A stretch of DNA of 64,000 nt, taken from contig NZ_KB849688.1 in NCBI RefSeq assembly GCF_000368785.1, positions 376,943 to 440,942 on the forward strand. Direction: 5' to 3'. The DNA is from Acinetobacter towneri DSM 14962 = CIP 107472 (GTDB taxonomy: Bacteria > Pseudomonadota > Gammaproteobacteria > Pseudomonadales > Moraxellaceae). Within the stretch, counting starts at the first letter, position 1. Each line of letters opens with the position of its first letter. The notes under the pieces are model-generated. The model did not search any database. It saw only the letters and a program-made list of their open reading frames with translations, and had not been told where the DNA came from. The position numbers and the translations under genes were made by a program. Below, one piece after another: positions 14,605 to 54,050 of the stretch.

Positions 14605-14678
14605 GGCGGGGTGGCAGAGTGGTCATGCAGCGGACTGCAACTCCGTGGACGCCGGTTCGATTCCGACCTCCGCCTCCA
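14605..14678 (+). tRNA. tRNA-Cys (anticodon GCA)
   Basis: 74 nt including encoded CCA. Acceptor GGCGGGG pairs with CTCCGCC (one G-U). The anticodon loop reads CTGCAAC, and the T-arm carries GGTTCGATTCC. It lies 15 bases upstream of tRNA-Leu, so the two are probably co-transcribed. Confidence 0.97.
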
Positions 14679-14693
14679 ATCTTGTAAAACTAT

Positions 14694-14779
14694 GCCCGAG
14701 TGGTGAAATCGGTAGACACAGGGGATTTAAAATCCCCCGCCCTCAAAGCGTGCCAGTTCGAGTCTGGCCTCGGGCACCA
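14694..14779 (+). tRNA. tRNA-Leu (anticodon TAA), copy 1
   Basis: 86 nt with a long variable arm and encoded CCA, typical of class II tRNA-Leu. Acceptor GCCCGAG pairs with CTCGGGC; the anticodon loop contains TTTAAAA. Identical in sequence to the copy at 17676-17761. Confidence 0.97.
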
Positions 14780-17675: not shown

Positions 17676-17761
17676 GCCCGAGTGGTGAAATCGGTAGACA
17701 CAGGGGATTTAAAATCCCCCGCCCTCAAAGCGTGCCAGTTCGAGTCTGGCCTCGGGCACCA
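17676..17761 (+). tRNA. tRNA-Leu (anticodon TAA), copy 2
   Basis: Identical over all 86 nt to the copy at 14694-14779, encoded CCA included. Similarity continues through the terminator but stops abruptly upstream of the tRNA, where this copy has its own promoter. Confidence 0.97.
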
Positions 17762-33850: not shown

Positions 33851-34864
33851 ATGAGTAATCAAGATAATCGTCCTGTGATTTTGACAGGCGATCGTCCAAC
33901 TGGACAACTACATTTAGGTCACTTTGTGGGTTCTTTACGTTCACGTGTAGGTTTACAAGACTCACATCATCAACATCTGTTACTTGCCGATGCTCAAGCC
34001 TTAACTGACAATGCCGATAACTTTGAAAAAGTCCGTCGTAATATTATTGAGGTAGCAACCGATTATTTAGCGGTGGGGATTGATCCAACAAAAACCACCA
34101 TTTGCGTGCAATCTTGCCTGCCTGCATTAAACGAACTCACCATGTTGTATTTAAACTTCGTGACTGTGGCACGTTTGGAGCGTAACCCAACCATTAAATC
34201 TGAAATTCAGATGCGTGGTTTTGAGCGTGATATTCCTGCAGGTTTCCTGTGCTACCCTGTAGCTCAAGCAGCCGATATTACTGCATTTAAAGCAACGGTC
34301 GTTCCTGTAGGTGAAGACCAAATTCCAATGATTGAACAGACCAATGAAATTGTGCGTCGGGTGAATCGTCAAATTGGTCATGACTTGCTACCTGAATGTC
34401 AGGCATTGTTGTCAAATGTCGGACGTTTACCTGGTTTTGATGGTAAAGCGAAAATGTCAAAATCACTGGGCAATACCATTGTGTTAGATGCCACAGACAA
34501 AGACATTAAAAAAGCTGTCAATGCAATGTACACCGACCCAAATCACCTGCGTATCGAAGACCCAGGTCAGGTTGAAGGCAACGTAGTATTTACTTATTTA
34601 GATGCCTTCGATACCAACAAAGAAGAACTTGAAGAACTGAAAGCGCATTATCGTCGTGGTGGTTTGGGCGATGGTACGGTGAAAAAGCGTTTGGAAGGCA
34701 TTCTAAAAGAATTGATTGGGCCGATCCGTGAACGTCGTATCGAACTTGCTAAAGATCCTGACTACATTATGGATATTTTGAAAACAGGCACCGACAAATG
34801 CCGTGATATTACCCAGCAAACTTTAGATGAAGTGAAAGCTGGCTTGGGTGTATTCCGCTTCTAA
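33851..34864 (+). CDS. trpS: Tryptophanyl-tRNA synthetase
   Basis: Charges tRNA-Trp. 337 residues, class Ic Rossmann fold. The HIGH-type motif is TGQLHLGHFVGS and the KMSKS loop reads AKMSKSLGNTI, both intact. Activation-site residues in GFLCYPVAQAADI and PVGEDQIPMIEQTNEIVRR are as expected. ATG 33851 follows a GGAATA stretch, a weak ribosome site. Monocistronic, with a strong terminator and no visible T-box or leader attenuator. Confidence 0.98.
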   Translation: MSNQDNRPVILTGDRPTGQLHLGHFVGSLRSRVGLQDSHHQHLLLADAQALTDNADNFEKVRRNIIEVATDYLAVGIDPTKTTICVQSCLPALNELTMLYLNFVTVARLERNPTIKSEIQMRGFERDIPAGFLCYPVAQAADITAFKATVVPVGEDQIPMIEQTNEIVRRVNRQIGHDLLPECQALLSNVGRLPGFDGKAKMSKSLGNTIVLDATDKDIKKAVNAMYTDPNHLRIEDPGQVEGNVVFTYLDAFDTNKEELEELKAHYRRGGLGDGTVKKRLEGILKELIGPIRERRIELAKDPDYIMDILKTGTDKCRDITQQTLDEVKAGLGVFRF

Positions 34865-34888
34865 GCATTTTGTAGATACAAATATTTT

Positions 34889-34922
34889 AAAGTCTCTTAT
34901 TCACATGAATAAGAGACTTTTT
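34889..34922 (+). terminator. trpS terminator
   Basis: 15-bp perfect stem AAAGTCTCTTATTCA / TGAATAAGAGACTTT with a short loop and a brief T-run. Confidence 0.88.
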
Positions 34923-34976
34923 ATTTGAGTGAAAAATCAACATAAGATGACGTGATTCACAAAAAACACTTATTAC

Positions 34977-34999
34977 TTACGTGATTTAACATCACGTAA
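34977..34999. repeat. Perfect inverted repeat
   Basis: TTACGTGA-TTTAACA-TCACGTAA, 8-bp arms and 7-base spacer. Could be a dimer binding site controlling the small RNA candidate just downstream, or a hairpin in a longer transcript. Confidence 0.6.
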
Positions 35000-35039
35000 C
35001 CTGAATACTGCGGATTAGTATTTCTTCTCAGTTTAGTAT

Positions 35040-35153
35040 ACTTACATGCTTTAGGAGTAATCCTAATTTCATAACATTTCTCCGTTATCGAAGCTGTGAA
35101 AGCAGATTCGTTTTCATACGCAATGATCACCCCAATCATTGCGTATTTTTTTT
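35040..35153 (+). ncRNA. Candidate small RNA with its own intrinsic terminator
   Basis: A 12-bp stem ATACGCAATGAT / ATCATTGCGTAT (35116-35127, 35135-35146) with a 7-base loop and eight T is a strong plus-strand terminator, yet no plus-strand CDS precedes it after the trpS terminator. Upstream lie a TTAGGA-GTAA-TCCTAA hairpin (about 35051-35066) and a CGAAGCT...AGC...TTCG stem-loop. A -10-like TATACT sits at about 35037-35042. The 5' end is uncertain. Confidence 0.5.
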
Positions 35154-35402
35154 ATTTGAATCAGCTGTTTATACAGCTTGTTCAACAATAAAAAATCATT
35201 TCCCTAGATGCAAAAACTACTTGAACGGCTTTGTCGCACAAAGATTTCATAACTATATGATTTAAAAGTTTTGATTATTTTTTGATACAAAATTAAATTT
35301 ATTTAAATCAGATGCTTACATATTTATGCAACAAAGCAATACCAAATTAACTCTTATCATATACTTTATCTCTCAAATGTGGCTAATTTTTCAGCATAAA
35401 AA

Positions 35403-35422
35403 AATCCCCAATATTGGGGATT
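35403..35422 (-). terminator. sucD terminator
   Basis: Palindrome AATCCCCA..TGGGGATT followed on the minus strand by seven T; 36 bases after the sucD stop. Confidence 0.88.
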
Positions 35423-35458
35423 GAGCGCAGAATAAAATCAAGCTCTTCAAAATTTGAC

Positions 35459-36352
35459 TTATTTAAGCAAATCCTGATCTTTTAAGACTTGCCACATGGT
35501 AGAACCCAGTTCTGCAGGGCTACGGGTATAAGCAATTCCAGCACGCTCAAAGGCTGCAAATTTTTCTTCCGCAGTGCCTTTACCGCCTGAAATAATTGCA
35601 CCCGCATGTCCCATACGCTTACCTTTAGGTGCCGTCACTCCTGCAATATAACCCACCACAGGTTTGCTGACATTCGACTGGATATATTCCGCAGCCTCTT
35701 CTTCTGCTGTACCACCAATTTCACCAATCATAATAATCGCATCGGTATCTGGGTCGTCTTGGAACAGTTTTAAAGCATCAATTTGGTTCATACCTGGAAT
35801 CGGGTCACCACCAATCCCGATACAGGTCGATTGCCCTAAACCTAATTTGGTGGTTTGTGCCACAGCTTCATAGGTCAAAGTACCTGAACGTGAAATAATG
35901 CCAATTCGTCCTGGTTGATGAATATGCCCTGGCATGATGCCAATTTTACATTCACCTGGTGTAATCACACCTGGGCAGTTTGGTCCCACCAAACGTGTAC
36001 CATTGCCATTGGTTTCTAAATAACGCTTGGCTTTGAGCATGTCGATGGTTGGCACACCTTCCGTAATCACCACAATCAAACCTACTCCAGAATCGACTGC
36101 TTCTACAATCGAATCTAAAACAAACGGTGCAGGCACATAAATCACCGATGCATCTGCACCTGTTTCACGTACAGCTTCTTTCATGGTGTTAAATACAGGT
36201 AATTCCAAATGGGTTTGACCACCTTTTCCTGGCGTTACCCCACCCACCACTTTAGTTCCATAATCAAGTGCTTGTGCTGAGTGAAAAGTACCATTTTTAC
36301 CAGTGAAACCTTGTACCAATACTTTGGTGTCTTTATTAATTAATACGCTCAT
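35459..36352 (-). CDS. sucD: Succinyl-CoA synthetase alpha subunit
   Basis: With SucC converts succinyl-CoA to succinate with substrate-level formation of ATP or GTP. 297 residues. CoA-binding [11 protein letters not shown] near residue 16, and the phosphohistidine site [20 protein letters not shown] near the C-terminus, are intact. Starts 11 bases after sucC with GGAG upstream of the ATG, so the two are one transcript. Confidence 0.99.
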
Positions 36353-36363
36353 CCTGATTCTCC

Positions 36364-37530
36364 TTAAGCTTTCACTGCAGCAACAATTTTTTCTGCGGCA
36401 TCAGATAAGCCGTTTGCAGAAATAAGTTTTAATCCTGATTCATCGAGTAATTTTGCACCAAGTTCCGAGTTGTTCCCTTCTAGGCGAACCACTACAGGTA
36501 CCGTCACATTTACTTCCTGAACCGCTGCAATAATTGCTTCCGCAATCATGTCACAACGTACAATTCCACCAAAAATATTAATCAGTACGCCTTTAACCGA
36601 GTGATCTGCCAAAATAATTTTAAAGGCTTCAATTACGCGTTCTTTGGTTGCACCACCACCTACATCCAAGAAGTTCGCAGGCTGACCACCATAGAGTTTA
36701 ATAATATCCATAGTTGCCATTGCTAAACCTGCACCATTCACCATACAACCGATATTGCCTTCTAAAGCAACATAGTTCAGGTCAAATTCTGATGCACGCA
36801 ATTCACGTTCATTTTCTTGTGTTTTATCGCGCAGTGCCAAGACTTCAGGCAAACGATACTGCGCATTGGAATCAATACCGACTTTGGCATCGACACATAA
36901 AATGTCGCCATTTTCACGTACAGACAATGGGTTAATTTCAAATAAGGCAAAATCATTGTCGATAAATGCCTGATAAGCCGCTGTCATAATCTTCACAAAC
37001 TGCGTGATTTGACTGTCTTTGAGTTTTAATGCAAAAGCCACTTCACGTGCCTGAAATGGCAATAAACCCACTAAAGGATCAACTTCTACTTTAATAATTT
37101 TTTCTGGGGTTTCTTCTGCCACTTTCTCAATTTCAACACCACCTTCAGTAGATGCCATAAAAGTGACGCGACGGCTAGAACGATCTACCACTGCACCCAA
37201 ATACAGTTCACGCTCTACAGGATAAACATCTTCAGCCACTAAAATACTGTTTACAGGCTGACCATAGGCATCGGTTTGATAGGTGACCAAACGTGTTCCA
37301 AGAATTTGGTTGGCATAGTCTGCTGCTTCTTGTGCAGATTTTACGACCTTCACGCCGCCCGCTTTACCGCGACCACCTGCATGCACCTGAGCTTTCATCA
37401 CTGCAAATTTACCGCCCAGTTGCTCGAAAGCTTGCACGGCTTCTACGGCTGTAGTTGCCAAAATGCCTTCTTGTACTGGCATACCATATTTTTTTAATAG
37501 CGCTTTTGCTTGATACTCATGTAGATTCAT
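36364..37530 (-). CDS. sucC: Succinyl-CoA synthetase beta subunit
   Basis: 388 residues: N-terminal ATP-grasp domain ([37 protein letters not shown]) and C-terminal CoA-ligase domain with the FLDVGGGA loop and [10 protein letters not shown]. Nucleotide specificity cannot be read safely. AAAGG precedes the ATG by 8 bases. It is separated from lpd upstream by 174 bases that include a terminator, so sucCD may have a separate promoter. Confidence 0.99.
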
Positions 37531-39198: not shown

Positions 39199-40413
39199 TT
39201 AAAGGTCAAGGATGAGTTTAGCTGGCTCTTCTAACAATTCTTTGATTGTTACAAGGAAACCTACAGCTTCTTTACCATCAATTAAACGGTGGTCATAAGA
39301 AAGCGCTAAGTACATCATTGGCAAGATTTCAACTTGACCATTTACCGCCATAGGACGCTCTTGGATTTTGTGCATGCCCAAAATTGCAGTTTGTGGCGTG
39401 TTTAGAATTGGTGTAGATAACAATGAACCGAAAGTACCACCGTTAGTAATGGTGAATGTACCGCCAGTCATATCTTCAATACCTAGCTTACCGTCACGTG
39501 CTTTATAAGCATAGTCACGAATACCGTTTTCTACTTCAGCGTAGTTCATGCGGTCTGTATCACGTAATACAGGAACCACTAAACCACGGTCAGAAGAAAC
39601 CGCAACACCGATGTCGTAGTAACCGTGATATACGATGTCTTCGCCATCAATAGAAGCGTTTACTGCTGGGTAACGTTTCAATGCTTCAGTTGCAGCTTTC
39701 ACGAAGAAAGACATAAAGCCTAAACGTGCACCATGACGTTTTTCAAATGCGTCTTTGTATTGTGCACGCATTTCCATGATTGGCTTCATGTTCACTTCGT
39801 TGAATGTTGTCAACATTGCAGTTTCTTGAGTCGCTGCAAGTAAACGCTCTGCAACACGCTTACGTAAACGTGTCATAGGAACACGTTTCTCGATACGCTC
39901 ACCTACCGCAACGCTTAATGGCGCAGCTGCAGCAGCAGGTTTAGCTTGATGATTTGCAACATCTTCTTTAGTGATACGACCACCACGACCTGTACCAGAA
40001 ACGTCTGCAGCATTGATACCTGTTTCAGTCAACGCTTTACGTACTGCTGGTGCTTGGTCAGCAACTGGTTGTGCACGCTCAACAACTGGCGCAGCGCCTG
40101 CTTCAGTTTTCGCCGCAGCTTGCTCTACTTGTGCTTCAGACTGAACTGCTTGAGTTTGAGCAGCGCCAGAAACAGCACCCGCTTCAAATTGAGCAATTAC
40201 TTCGTCAGAAAGAACTGTATCGCCTTCGTTTTTGATGATTGCAGAGATTGTGCCATCAGCAGGAGCGACTACTTCCAAAACAACTTTATCGGTTTCAATA
40301 TCACAGATCACTTCATCACGTGAAACTGCTTCACCTGGTTGTTTGTGCCAAGTTGCAATCGTACCGTCTGCAACTGACTCTGGAAATACCGGTGCTTTAA
40401 TTTCGGTTGCCAT
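39199..40413 (-). CDS. sucB: 2-Oxoglutarate dehydrogenase E2 (dihydrolipoyl succinyltransferase)
   Basis: Core of the OGDH complex; transfers succinyl from E1 to CoA. 404 residues. One N-terminal lipoyl domain with Lys in [12 protein letters not shown], an Ala/Gln/Glu-rich linker, the E3/E1-binding domain ([29 protein letters not shown]), then the catalytic domain with [16 protein letters not shown]. Sixteen bases downstream of sucA with a good AGGAG site. Confidence 0.99.
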
Positions 40414-40429
40414 TACTTCGAATCTCCTG

Positions 40430-43264
40430 TTATTCAGCTACGATCGCAAGCGCGTCATTGATGAGCTGAGCTTGTTGTTTTGCATGCAAATATGGTGAAC
40501 CACACGCTGGTGCTGCAGATGCTTCACGACCCGCATAACTAATGCGAATCTGTTTACCAGTTTTCATTACGTCATCATATAAACGTGGCGCGATGAATAA
40601 CCAAGCACCTTGGTTCTTCGGCTCTTCTTGAGTCCAAACTAATTCTTTTACGTTTGGATAAGAAGCAAGAACTTCAGCAAGACGTTGTTCTGGATATGGG
40701 TACAACTGTTCAATACGAACAATTGCAGTATTGTTCAATACTAATTCACGACGCTTTTCAAGCAAGTCGTAATACACTTTACCACCACACAATACCAAAC
40801 GCGTCACGTCTGATTTGTTGATGTTGTCAATTTCATCAATCACAGTCTGGAATGTACCAGTTGCAAGCTCATCAAGGTTAGACACTGCTAACTTGTGACG
40901 AAGTAAAGACTTCGGCGACATGATGATCATTGGCTTACGGATTGGACGAATCGCCTGACGACGTAAAGCGTGGAAAATCTGTGCAGGTGTTGTTGGTGTC
41001 ATCACTTGCATGTTTTCTTCCGCACAAAGCTGTAAGAAACGCTCTAAACGTGCAGATGAGTGCTCAGGACCTTGACCTTCAAAACCGTGTGGAAGAAGCA
41101 TCGTTAAACCACACACACGCTCCCACTTGGTTTCGCCAGATGAAATGAACTGGTCGATTACCACTTGAGCACAGTTGGCAAAGTCACCGAATTGTGCTTC
41201 CCAAATAATCAAGCTCTTTGGAAGGGTCGTCGCATAACCATATTCAAATGCCAATACTGCCATTTCAGACAATAATGAGTCGTAGATTGCAACGCGTGGT
41301 TGGTTCTCTTTGATGTGGCAAAGTGGAATATAAGTTTTACCATCGACTTGGTTATGCAGTTTTGCATGACGGTGCGAGAAAGTACCACGACCAACGTCTT
41401 CACCAGTCAAACGAACAAGGTAACCCTCATCCAACAAAGATGCGTAAGCTAAAGTTTCAGCTGCACCCCAGTTTAGTGGCATTTCACCTGTTTGCATTTT
41501 CAAGCGATCGTCAATCACTTTGGCAACTTGGCGCTGCATCACGAAACCTTCTGGAAGTTTACGCATGGTTTGACCAAGTTCTTTCAAACGCTCGATAGGG
41601 AAAGTTGTATCCCAAACGTCTGTATAGTCGTGACCCAAGTATGGCGACCAATCTACAAACATTTTGGTATTTGGCTCAAGTACCAATGCGTTCGCAACGT
41701 GATTACCCGCTTCTAAATCTGCGCGGTAATCTTCAATCATTTGATCTGCTGCTGCGCGATCCAACACACCTTCTTGCACCAATTGGTCAGCATACAAAGT
41801 ACGTGTAGTGGTCTTTTTGTTGATCACTTGATACATCATTGGCTGAGTTGCTGCAGGTTCATCAGCTTCGTTGTGACCACGACGACGGTAGCAGAACAAA
41901 TCAATCACAACGTCTTTACGGAATGTATGACGGAAATCGTGTGCCAATTGAGATACAAAAATCACCGCTTCAGGATCATCGCCATTCACGTGGAAAATTG
42001 GCGCCTGAATCATTTTTGCAATGTCAGTACAGTATTCAGTAGAACGTGCGTCACGTGGGTCAGATGTTGTGAAACCAACTTGGTTGTTAATCACAATGTG
42101 AACTGTACCACCTACGGTATAACCGCGAGTTTGTGACATTTGGAAGGTTTCTTGGTTAACACCTTGACCTGCAAATGCGGCATCACCGTGAACGATTAAT
42201 GGCAATACATCATCACCACCAATGTCTTTACGACGTACTTGGCGCGCACGTACAGAACCCTCAACCACAGGTCCAACAATTTCTAAGTGCGATGGGTTAA
42301 ACGCAAGTGCCAAGTGCACTTCACCACCCGGAGTCATCACGTTAGATGAGAAACCTTGGTGATATTTTACGTCGCCAGAACCTTTTTTATGCAAGCTCTT
42401 ACCTTCGAACTCACCAAATAGGTCTGCAGGGTTTTTACCCATGATGTTCACAAGCAGGTTCAAACGACCACGGTGTGGCATGCCAATCACGACTTCTTTA
42501 CAGCCAACAGCACCCGCACGTTGAATGATTTCATTCACCATAGGGATAAATGATTCACCGCCTTCTACACCAAAGCGTTTCGCACCAACGTATTTATTAC
42601 CTAGATATTTTTCTAGACCCTCAGCTGCTGTTAAGCGTTCAAGAACGTGTTTCTTTTGATCTGCAGTAAATGTGAACTTACCACGTGCGCTTTCTAAGCG
42701 TTGTTGAATCCAGCGTCTTTCTTTGGTATCAACAATGTGCATGTATTCTGCACCAATTGAACCGCAGTAGATCGCCTGCATGGCATCAACCATTTCGCCT
42801 AGTGTTGCTTCAGACTTACCAATTTCCAAATTACCTGTATGGAAAACAGTATCTAAATCAGACTTGGTTAAACCATGTGCAGCAAGATCAAGATCTGGCA
42901 CGTCTTCACGTTTTGCCAAACCTAGTGGATCTAATTTTGCTTTTTGGTGACCACGGTTACGGTAAGCAGCAATCAGTTGCAACACGCCAATTTGACGTTG
43001 TTCATGTTCAGAACTCACTGAACCTTGAACAATGGCTTGAACGCGATTTGAATTACGACCTAATAAAAGGAATTGCTCACGTACATTACTGTGTGGTTGA
43101 TCACCCTTCGGGAATTTATCGAAATATTCGCGCCAATCAGCACCGACTGATTCCGGTGACGTCAAATAATGCTCGTAAAGTTCTTCAATATACGCTGCAC
43201 TATCAGCGGAAAGTTCAGTGTCAAGACGCAGTGCGTCAGCAACTTCTTGCATTTGTGGACCCAT
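40430..43264 (-). CDS. sucA: 2-Oxoglutarate dehydrogenase E1
   Basis: Thiamine-diphosphate decarboxylase of the OGDH complex. 944 residues. N-terminal E2-binding segment ([27 protein letters not shown]), the ThDP/active-site stretch [31 protein letters not shown], and the C-terminal transketolase-like domain with [19 protein letters not shown]. The start is ambiguous: ATG 43264 has AGGA too close, while ATG 43252 (MQEVADAL) lies 12 bases downstream with a looser site. First gene of sucAB-lpd, behind an 871-base upstream region. Confidence 0.98.
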
Positions 43265-52799: not shown

Positions 52800-52876
52800 T
52801 GGTGGCTATGACGGGACTTGAACCTGTGACCCCCGCATTATGAGTGCGGTGCTCTAACCAACTGAGCTACATAGCC
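52800..52876 (-). tRNA. tRNA-Met (anticodon CAT), copy 1
   Basis: 77 nt with encoded CCA. Acceptor GGCTATG / CATAGCC, D-arm GCTCAGTTGGTTAGAGC, anticodon loop CTCATAA, T-loop GTTCAAGTC. Elongator-type; a lysidine-modified tRNA-Ile2 also reads CAT in its gene, but the overall sequence fits tRNA-Met. Own promoter at 52892-52920. Confidence 0.95.
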
Positions 52877-53521: not shown

Positions 53522-53598
53522 TGGTGGCTATGACGGGACTTGAACCTGTGACCCCCGCATTATGAGTGCGGTGCTCTAACCAACTGAGCTACATAGCC
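53522..53598 (-). tRNA. tRNA-Met (anticodon CAT), copy 2
   Basis: 77 nt, identical to copy 1. The sequence between the -10 element and the tRNA is also nearly identical in the two copies. Confidence 0.95.
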
Positions 53599-53642: not shown

Positions 53643-53673
53643 GCCTTATCACGCATCAATTGCTTAAAATTTG

Positions 53674-54050
<377 letters not shown>

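Follow-up and report, generated by a model that had tools for sequence, protein, structure and literature searches.

What transcript ends at a strong terminator that has no gene in front of it? This question is raised by the window (the whole 64,000-nt stretch of Acinetobacter towneri DSM 14962 DNA analysed here) in the interval between trpS (33851-34864, plus strand) and sucD (35459-36352, minus strand), the names of which, like those of sucC and sucB, were confirmed by NCBIfam.

The orphan terminator and its RNA family

An earlier note on this DNA had claimed a strong plus-strand terminator in the interval between the trpS terminator and sucD, and such a terminator is indeed present. The terminator scan placed the stem of trpS's own terminator at 34889-34920 (plus strand) and a terminator-like site belonging to sucD at 35422-35403 (minus strand). 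The orphan stem, at 35116-35146, has 12 pairs, four of them G-C, and a 7-nt loop, and ends in a run of eight T (35146-35153), the first of which doubles as the last base of the stem. Over both strands of 34000-36500 there are eight terminator-like sites, versus 1.9 ± 1.5 in shuffled sequences. The absence of a plus-strand gene ahead of the terminator holds for ORFs of at least 30 aa, none of which ends before it; the only plus-strand ORF of this size that touches the terminator is a 31-aa frame (35096-35191) running through it. The two hairpins that had been placed ahead of the terminator can both fold, at 35051-35056/35061-35066 and at 35089-35110.

The identity of the RNA came from the Rfam covariance search, in which the Aar family (RF02375) matched 34975-35160 on the plus strand with 103.7 bits (E 6.4e-15; gathering score 60), the match covering all 191 model positions. 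That is, judging from its sequence, the orphan terminator is the 3′ end of Aar, an sRNA already known from Acinetobacter. The note's proposal of a small RNA of about 110 nt is borne out (the predicted size is about 100-110 nt), but its description of the RNA as undescribed fails because of the Aar match: publications on the A. baumannii RNA include Northern blots and in-line probing, and describe its targets and its association with Hfq. Giving it this name avoids a known sRNA being taken for a new one, and makes the published work usable at once. The locus is an orthologue of RF02375, the published seed, the two 3′ hairpins and the size all being present in the window. It has in common with the family the genus, the place after trpS, the seed, the two 3′ hairpins and the terminator loop CACCCCA, and differs from it in carrying G instead of U after CUCC, in a lineage-specific stem around the seed and in a Rfam 5′ stem that does not form. 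What may be new is a single regulatory lead, a conserved triple DNA repeat ahead of the putative promoter. We hold with high confidence that the locus is an aar gene, a reading that includes, as proposals, A. baumannii-type action and an OmpR-family switch. A DNA search found aar to be single-copy in its own genome. Sub-threshold Rfam matches to the same stretch (IR_84, MIR828, Yfr10, L10_leader and AbsR25) were taken as chance. Elsewhere in the window, Rfam identified an ordinary RNase P RNA (53672-54049, 333.4 bits) and five equally ordinary tRNA genes (at 14605-14776, 17676-17758, 52803-52876 and 53525-53598).

Matches to RF02375 were obtained in 141 of the 149 Acinetobacter genomes at E ≤ 0.001, 129 of them above the cut-off, and in none of 14 control genomes. 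In a draw of 149 genomes from the bacterial family, 36 matched, all of which belong to one of the 16 genera sampled, so that the restriction to Acinetobacter holds. Among the eight genomes of the genus that gave no match, trpS was found in seven, and five of these seven trpS loci are followed by an aar-like terminator with a C-rich loop (by a loose pattern), suggesting that some of the absences may reflect divergence. Furthermore, of 80 named loci chosen by TrpS, 76 had a terminator of the aar type no more than 420 nt from trpS, and in 65 of these 76 the repeats were present as well. Comparison of TrpS puts Acinetobacter sp. UBA801 (100%) and A. towneri 5-2Ac02 (99%) nearest among the named genomes. 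The alignment used below has 141 rows, one from the window and 140 from other loci, the eight non-matching genomes being left out; pair counts are based on 139 distinct rows, after two of the 141 that are identical over 34975-35160 had been dropped.

Structure and extent of the RNA

From the RF02375 match, the conserved -10 element and the seed numbering, Aar is predicted here to be a transcript of about 102-108 nt within 35046-35153 (plus strand), starting at 35046-35052. The RNA at 35046-35154 folds with a minimum free energy of -29.1 kcal/mol (z -4.5 vs mononucleotide shuffles). Its predicted elements are, from the 5′ side, a hairpin UUAGGA-GUAA-UCCUAA (35051-35066) in the minimum-energy fold, a lineage-specific stem AUAAC/GUUAU (35071-35088) whose 8-nt loop holds AUUUCUCC and which occurs in both of two equal-energy folds, a conserved hairpin CGAA-CUG...CAG-UUCG (35089-35110) and the intrinsic terminator with its CACCCCA loop and T run (35116-35153). 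The earlier note had suggested a covariance search of a three-hairpin structure across Acinetobacter, and covariation supports the last two elements. In the 139 rows, 90.8% of the cells of the conserved hairpin are paired (85.2% in shuffles), with 39 compensatory cells vs 9.2 ± 2.5, and for the terminator the values are 96.6% (94.5% in shuffles) and 32 compensatory cells vs 3.6 ± 1.8. The 5′ hairpin is left without covariation (56.4% paired vs 56.9% in shuffles, in a gappy region where the test on the 139 rows is weak), which is in line with in-line probing of A. baumannii Aar, where the predicted 5′ hairpin was absent and the 5′ end was single-stranded to nucleotide 38, followed by two hairpins (PMC11472050). 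Structure and position are kept within Acinetobacter.

There are two estimates of the start. The seed CUCC is nucleotides 29-32 in A. baumannii numbering (PMC11472050), which sets +1 at 35052, and the conserved -10 element at 35034-35039 suggests a start at about 35046. Counting from the seed makes the A. nosocomialis Aar exactly 103 nt long, with TAATAT just upstream. The -10 element is TAGTAT in the window, a form seen in six of the 141 loci; TATTAT is the commonest (44 loci), followed by TAATAT (22), TACTAT (19) and TATGAT (13), with other forms making up the rest, while A at the second position and T at the sixth are found in 141 of 141 loci. A generic sigma-70 scan detected no plus-strand promoter near the feature, and the promoter emerges from the alignment only.

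This placement bears on the 5′ boundary of the Rfam model. Its first ~71 positions (window 34975-35045) look like promoter and repeat DNA rather than RNA, and the boundary may need correction. The transcript could instead be the longer form known from A. baylyi, with the 5′ third, repeats included, being RNA folded as in the Rfam model. Aar was first described in 2010 (Schilling) in A. baylyi as a 181-nt RNA (cited in PMC11472050), the model spans 191 positions and its 5′ part adds to the score, and the compensatory cells of the Rfam 5′ stem (153) exceed those of shuffles (114 ± 13), although slid versions of the stem reach 132. Against this, only 6 of the 14 pairs of the stem are standard in the window, and over the 139 rows 44.4% of its cells are paired, compared with 41.9% for shuffles and 30-40% for slid controls. 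The outer helix, of which five pairs were tested, reaches 37.4%, vs 34.3% in shuffles and 33-51% when slid. Moreover, the conserved -10 element lies inside the stretch, and Northern blots give A. baumannii Aar a length of about 100 nt, that of strain AB5075 being a 103-nt RNA (PMC11472050). We consider the longer form unlikely, and take the Rfam 5′ stem as a flaw of the model boundary and not as a defining feature because the A. baumannii RNA has its start downstream of this stem. If the shorter transcript is correct, the first third of RF02375 would be promoter DNA and not RNA, and a wrong 5′ boundary would lead automated annotation throughout the genus to place the aar start upstream of its true position by about 70 nt.

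Even less probable is a reading in which the terminator is reached by read-through from trpS, the element being a trpS 3′ UTR or a 3′-derived RNA. In its favour, 132 of the 140 other aar loci have trpS upstream of them and in the same orientation, at a median distance of 105.5 nt from the start of the Rfam match. However, trpS has its own terminator, the conserved -10 element follows that terminator, eight of the 140 loci have no trpS hit alongside, and Aar is called independently transcribed in an mBio paper (PMC12802169). The idea that the feature is a small-protein gene or a chance hairpin is very improbable. In its favour is a 60-aa minus-strand frame over 34957-35139; against it are the compensatory changes of the two 3′ hairpins in the 139 rows and the RNA family match, which already makes this reading unlikely. 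The note had allowed that the place beside sucCD could be chance, and we agree that this neighbourhood is incidental, because sucD is near only 28 of the 140 aar loci (within fetched flanks of 1500 nt for 30 loci and 600 nt for 110) whereas trpS is near 132. At two loci fetched after trpS, L266 (A. baumannii ACIN00150) and L275 (A. guillouiae), there is no Aar match and another gene follows trpS, so that aar has moved or is missing there.

Seed and predicted targets

The seed region consists of nine nucleotides at 35076-35084, corresponding to A. baumannii positions 25-33, with the core CUCC at 35080-35083. Positions 35076-35083 are predicted to be unpaired with a probability of at least 0.99, so that the core lies in an unpaired stretch. 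CTCC occurs in the aligned seed columns in 104 of the 141 rows and anywhere in the 5′ stretch in 127. The base after CUCC is U in 119 of the 129 rows that have a letter there, and G in two, namely the window (G35084) and its near relative L097. Since G35084 begins GUUAU, it allows the stem AUAAC/GUUAU to form, in which case the CUCC seed sits in the loop. By number, G35084 is A. baumannii position 33. A U33A change in A. baumannii abolishes carO repression, which a compensatory change restores (PMC12802169), and this weighs against the carO reading here; the same source places the U33A site 'immediately upstream' of the seed, whereas the numbering puts it after CUCC. The locus with the top RF02375 score (L001, 189.3 bits) has CTAC in place of CTCC and forms a weak Aar-carO duplex (-12.7).

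In A. baumannii, Aar, also known as sRNA21, binds the mRNAs of carO and bfnH as well as two others, and changing the seed relieves repression (PMC11472050). It is a prominent Hfq-bound RNA that becomes scarcer on Hfq depletion, and it represses carO and rsuA (PMC12802169). A further paper confirms carO repression, which amounted to about 10% in A. baumannii itself and to about 77% in E. coli (PMC12646401). The window RNA resembles this Aar in its CUCC seed and its size of about 100 nt, and its own genome, as in A. baumannii, has a carO gene with a GAGGAG Shine-Dalgarno sequence; it differs in base 33 and in the upstream sequence, except for the repeats and the -10 element.

The carO gene of the genome was located with a CarO sequence as the query and then named by NCBIfam (NF038067, 420.6 bits, cut-off 300). 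Its start region is GAGGAGAAACACAATG, and its ribosome-binding site, GAGGAGAAA, forms seven contiguous pairs with the Aar seed. The duplex has an energy of -27.1 kcal/mol, calculated, as for all duplexes here, without charging intramolecular structure; this was matched by 4 of 1000 plain shuffles and by 20 of 1000 in which the Shine-Dalgarno sequence was kept. Three of 44 other start regions of the same genome pair with Aar at least as strongly as carO. We then compared 31 genomes, that is, the window's own and 30 picked among aar carriers, with the wrong start region being used for one of them (G140, the carO start of which was not found). Over these genomes the mean z was -1.93, with z < -2 in 13, and the native Aar-carO pair was stronger than the average non-native pair in 17 of 31, indicating no clear co-variation. 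These two counts suggest that the pairing is largely generic Shine-Dalgarno pairing. Pairing of Aar with carO is plausible here, and would be mostly what any GGAG site yields. The start region of sucB (40374-40453, minus strand) pairs with Aar more strongly than carO does (-30.2 kcal/mol), and was rejected as a target since relatives do not share this pairing (z < -2 in 2 of 31 genomes). At the scale of the whole genome, the pattern complementary to the seed is not enriched, with five matches (one being aar itself) vs 20 for the reversed pattern.

By extension from A. baumannii, Aar would have a promoter of its own that is used under stress and in stationary phase, and the RNA would be stabilised by Hfq. 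Its single-stranded CUCC region would pair with the Shine-Dalgarno sequences of targets, carO above all, and so probably keep ribosomes from starting on mRNAs of outer-membrane proteins. In A. baumannii, Aar is up in stationary phase, osmotic shock, iron limitation and temperature shift (PMC11472050).

A triple repeat upstream of the putative promoter

Upstream of the -35 position, at 34976-35000 on the plus strand, lie three direct repeats with a spacing of 10 bp, CTTAC, TTAAC and GTAAC in the window and TTAAC in the genus consensus, which we regard from their conservation as a probable activator operator. The -35 position itself, at 35011-35016 by column counts, appears weak (CGGATT here, ATGAA- in the consensus). 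The AC cores of the repeats are present in 139, 137 and 132 of the 141 loci, and all three in 130. The pattern WAC (W = T/A) occurs three times at 10-bp spacing in 123 of the 141 upstream stretches, compared with a mean of 1.07 and a maximum of 6 in shuffles, and in none of the 141 downstream stretches. At other spacings, 22 of 141 stretches have the pattern at 8 bp and 0-3 at 7, 9, 11, 12, 13 or 14 bp. We read the repeats and the conserved -10 element as promoter DNA with a candidate activator operator. Within the window's own genome the repeat pattern is not enriched, with 41 matches at up to three mismatches vs 155 for the reversed pattern, and aar's own site reaches the genome pattern only with three mismatches. 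No regulon can be read from these matches because the reversed pattern outnumbers the repeat pattern.

A 10-bp repeat alone does not name a regulator, and OmpR or BfmR could be candidates. OmpR-family regulators use direct repeats at such spacing, and a study of BfmR reportedly describes a motif of direct repeats as well as control of sRNAs. In the proposed switch, a response regulator of the OmpR family, either OmpR or BfmR, would activate aar from the three TTAAC-type repeats, which sit just upstream of the weak -35 element. Extended to the whole of Acinetobacter, that is, to one ancient aar promoter whose triple TTAAC operator would be bound by an envelope-stress regulator such as OmpR or BfmR, this proposal, made from sequence conservation, seems to us evenly poised between right and wrong. 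If true, A. baylyi and A. baumannii would share a common regulator, a matter that a 2024 paper asked about, and Aar would be the genus counterpart of the OmpR-controlled porin sRNAs. The enterobacterial OmrA/OmrB and MicF, OmpR-activated or envelope-stress sRNAs, pair at the starts of outer-membrane protein mRNAs; Aar works alike, possibly with an OmpR-type regulator, and is likened to them by mode of action and not as a member.

In the open-licence literature searched, no regulator of aar and no promoter repeat is named, and PMC11472050 makes no mention of a repeat, operator, palindrome, OmpR, BfmR or Rfam. The same source states that the aar promoter regions of A. baylyi and A. baumannii differ, and presents reporter work on BaeR, AdeR and GacS, of which the last two had small effects. 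Both candidate regulators have counterparts in the window's own genome, which encodes nine proteins with an OmpR-type DNA-binding domain, among them OmpR (NF007005, 426.8 bits, cut-off 331) as well as a regulator resembling BfmR, whose best named match is PDB 5hm6 'BfmR' (E 7.4e-77).
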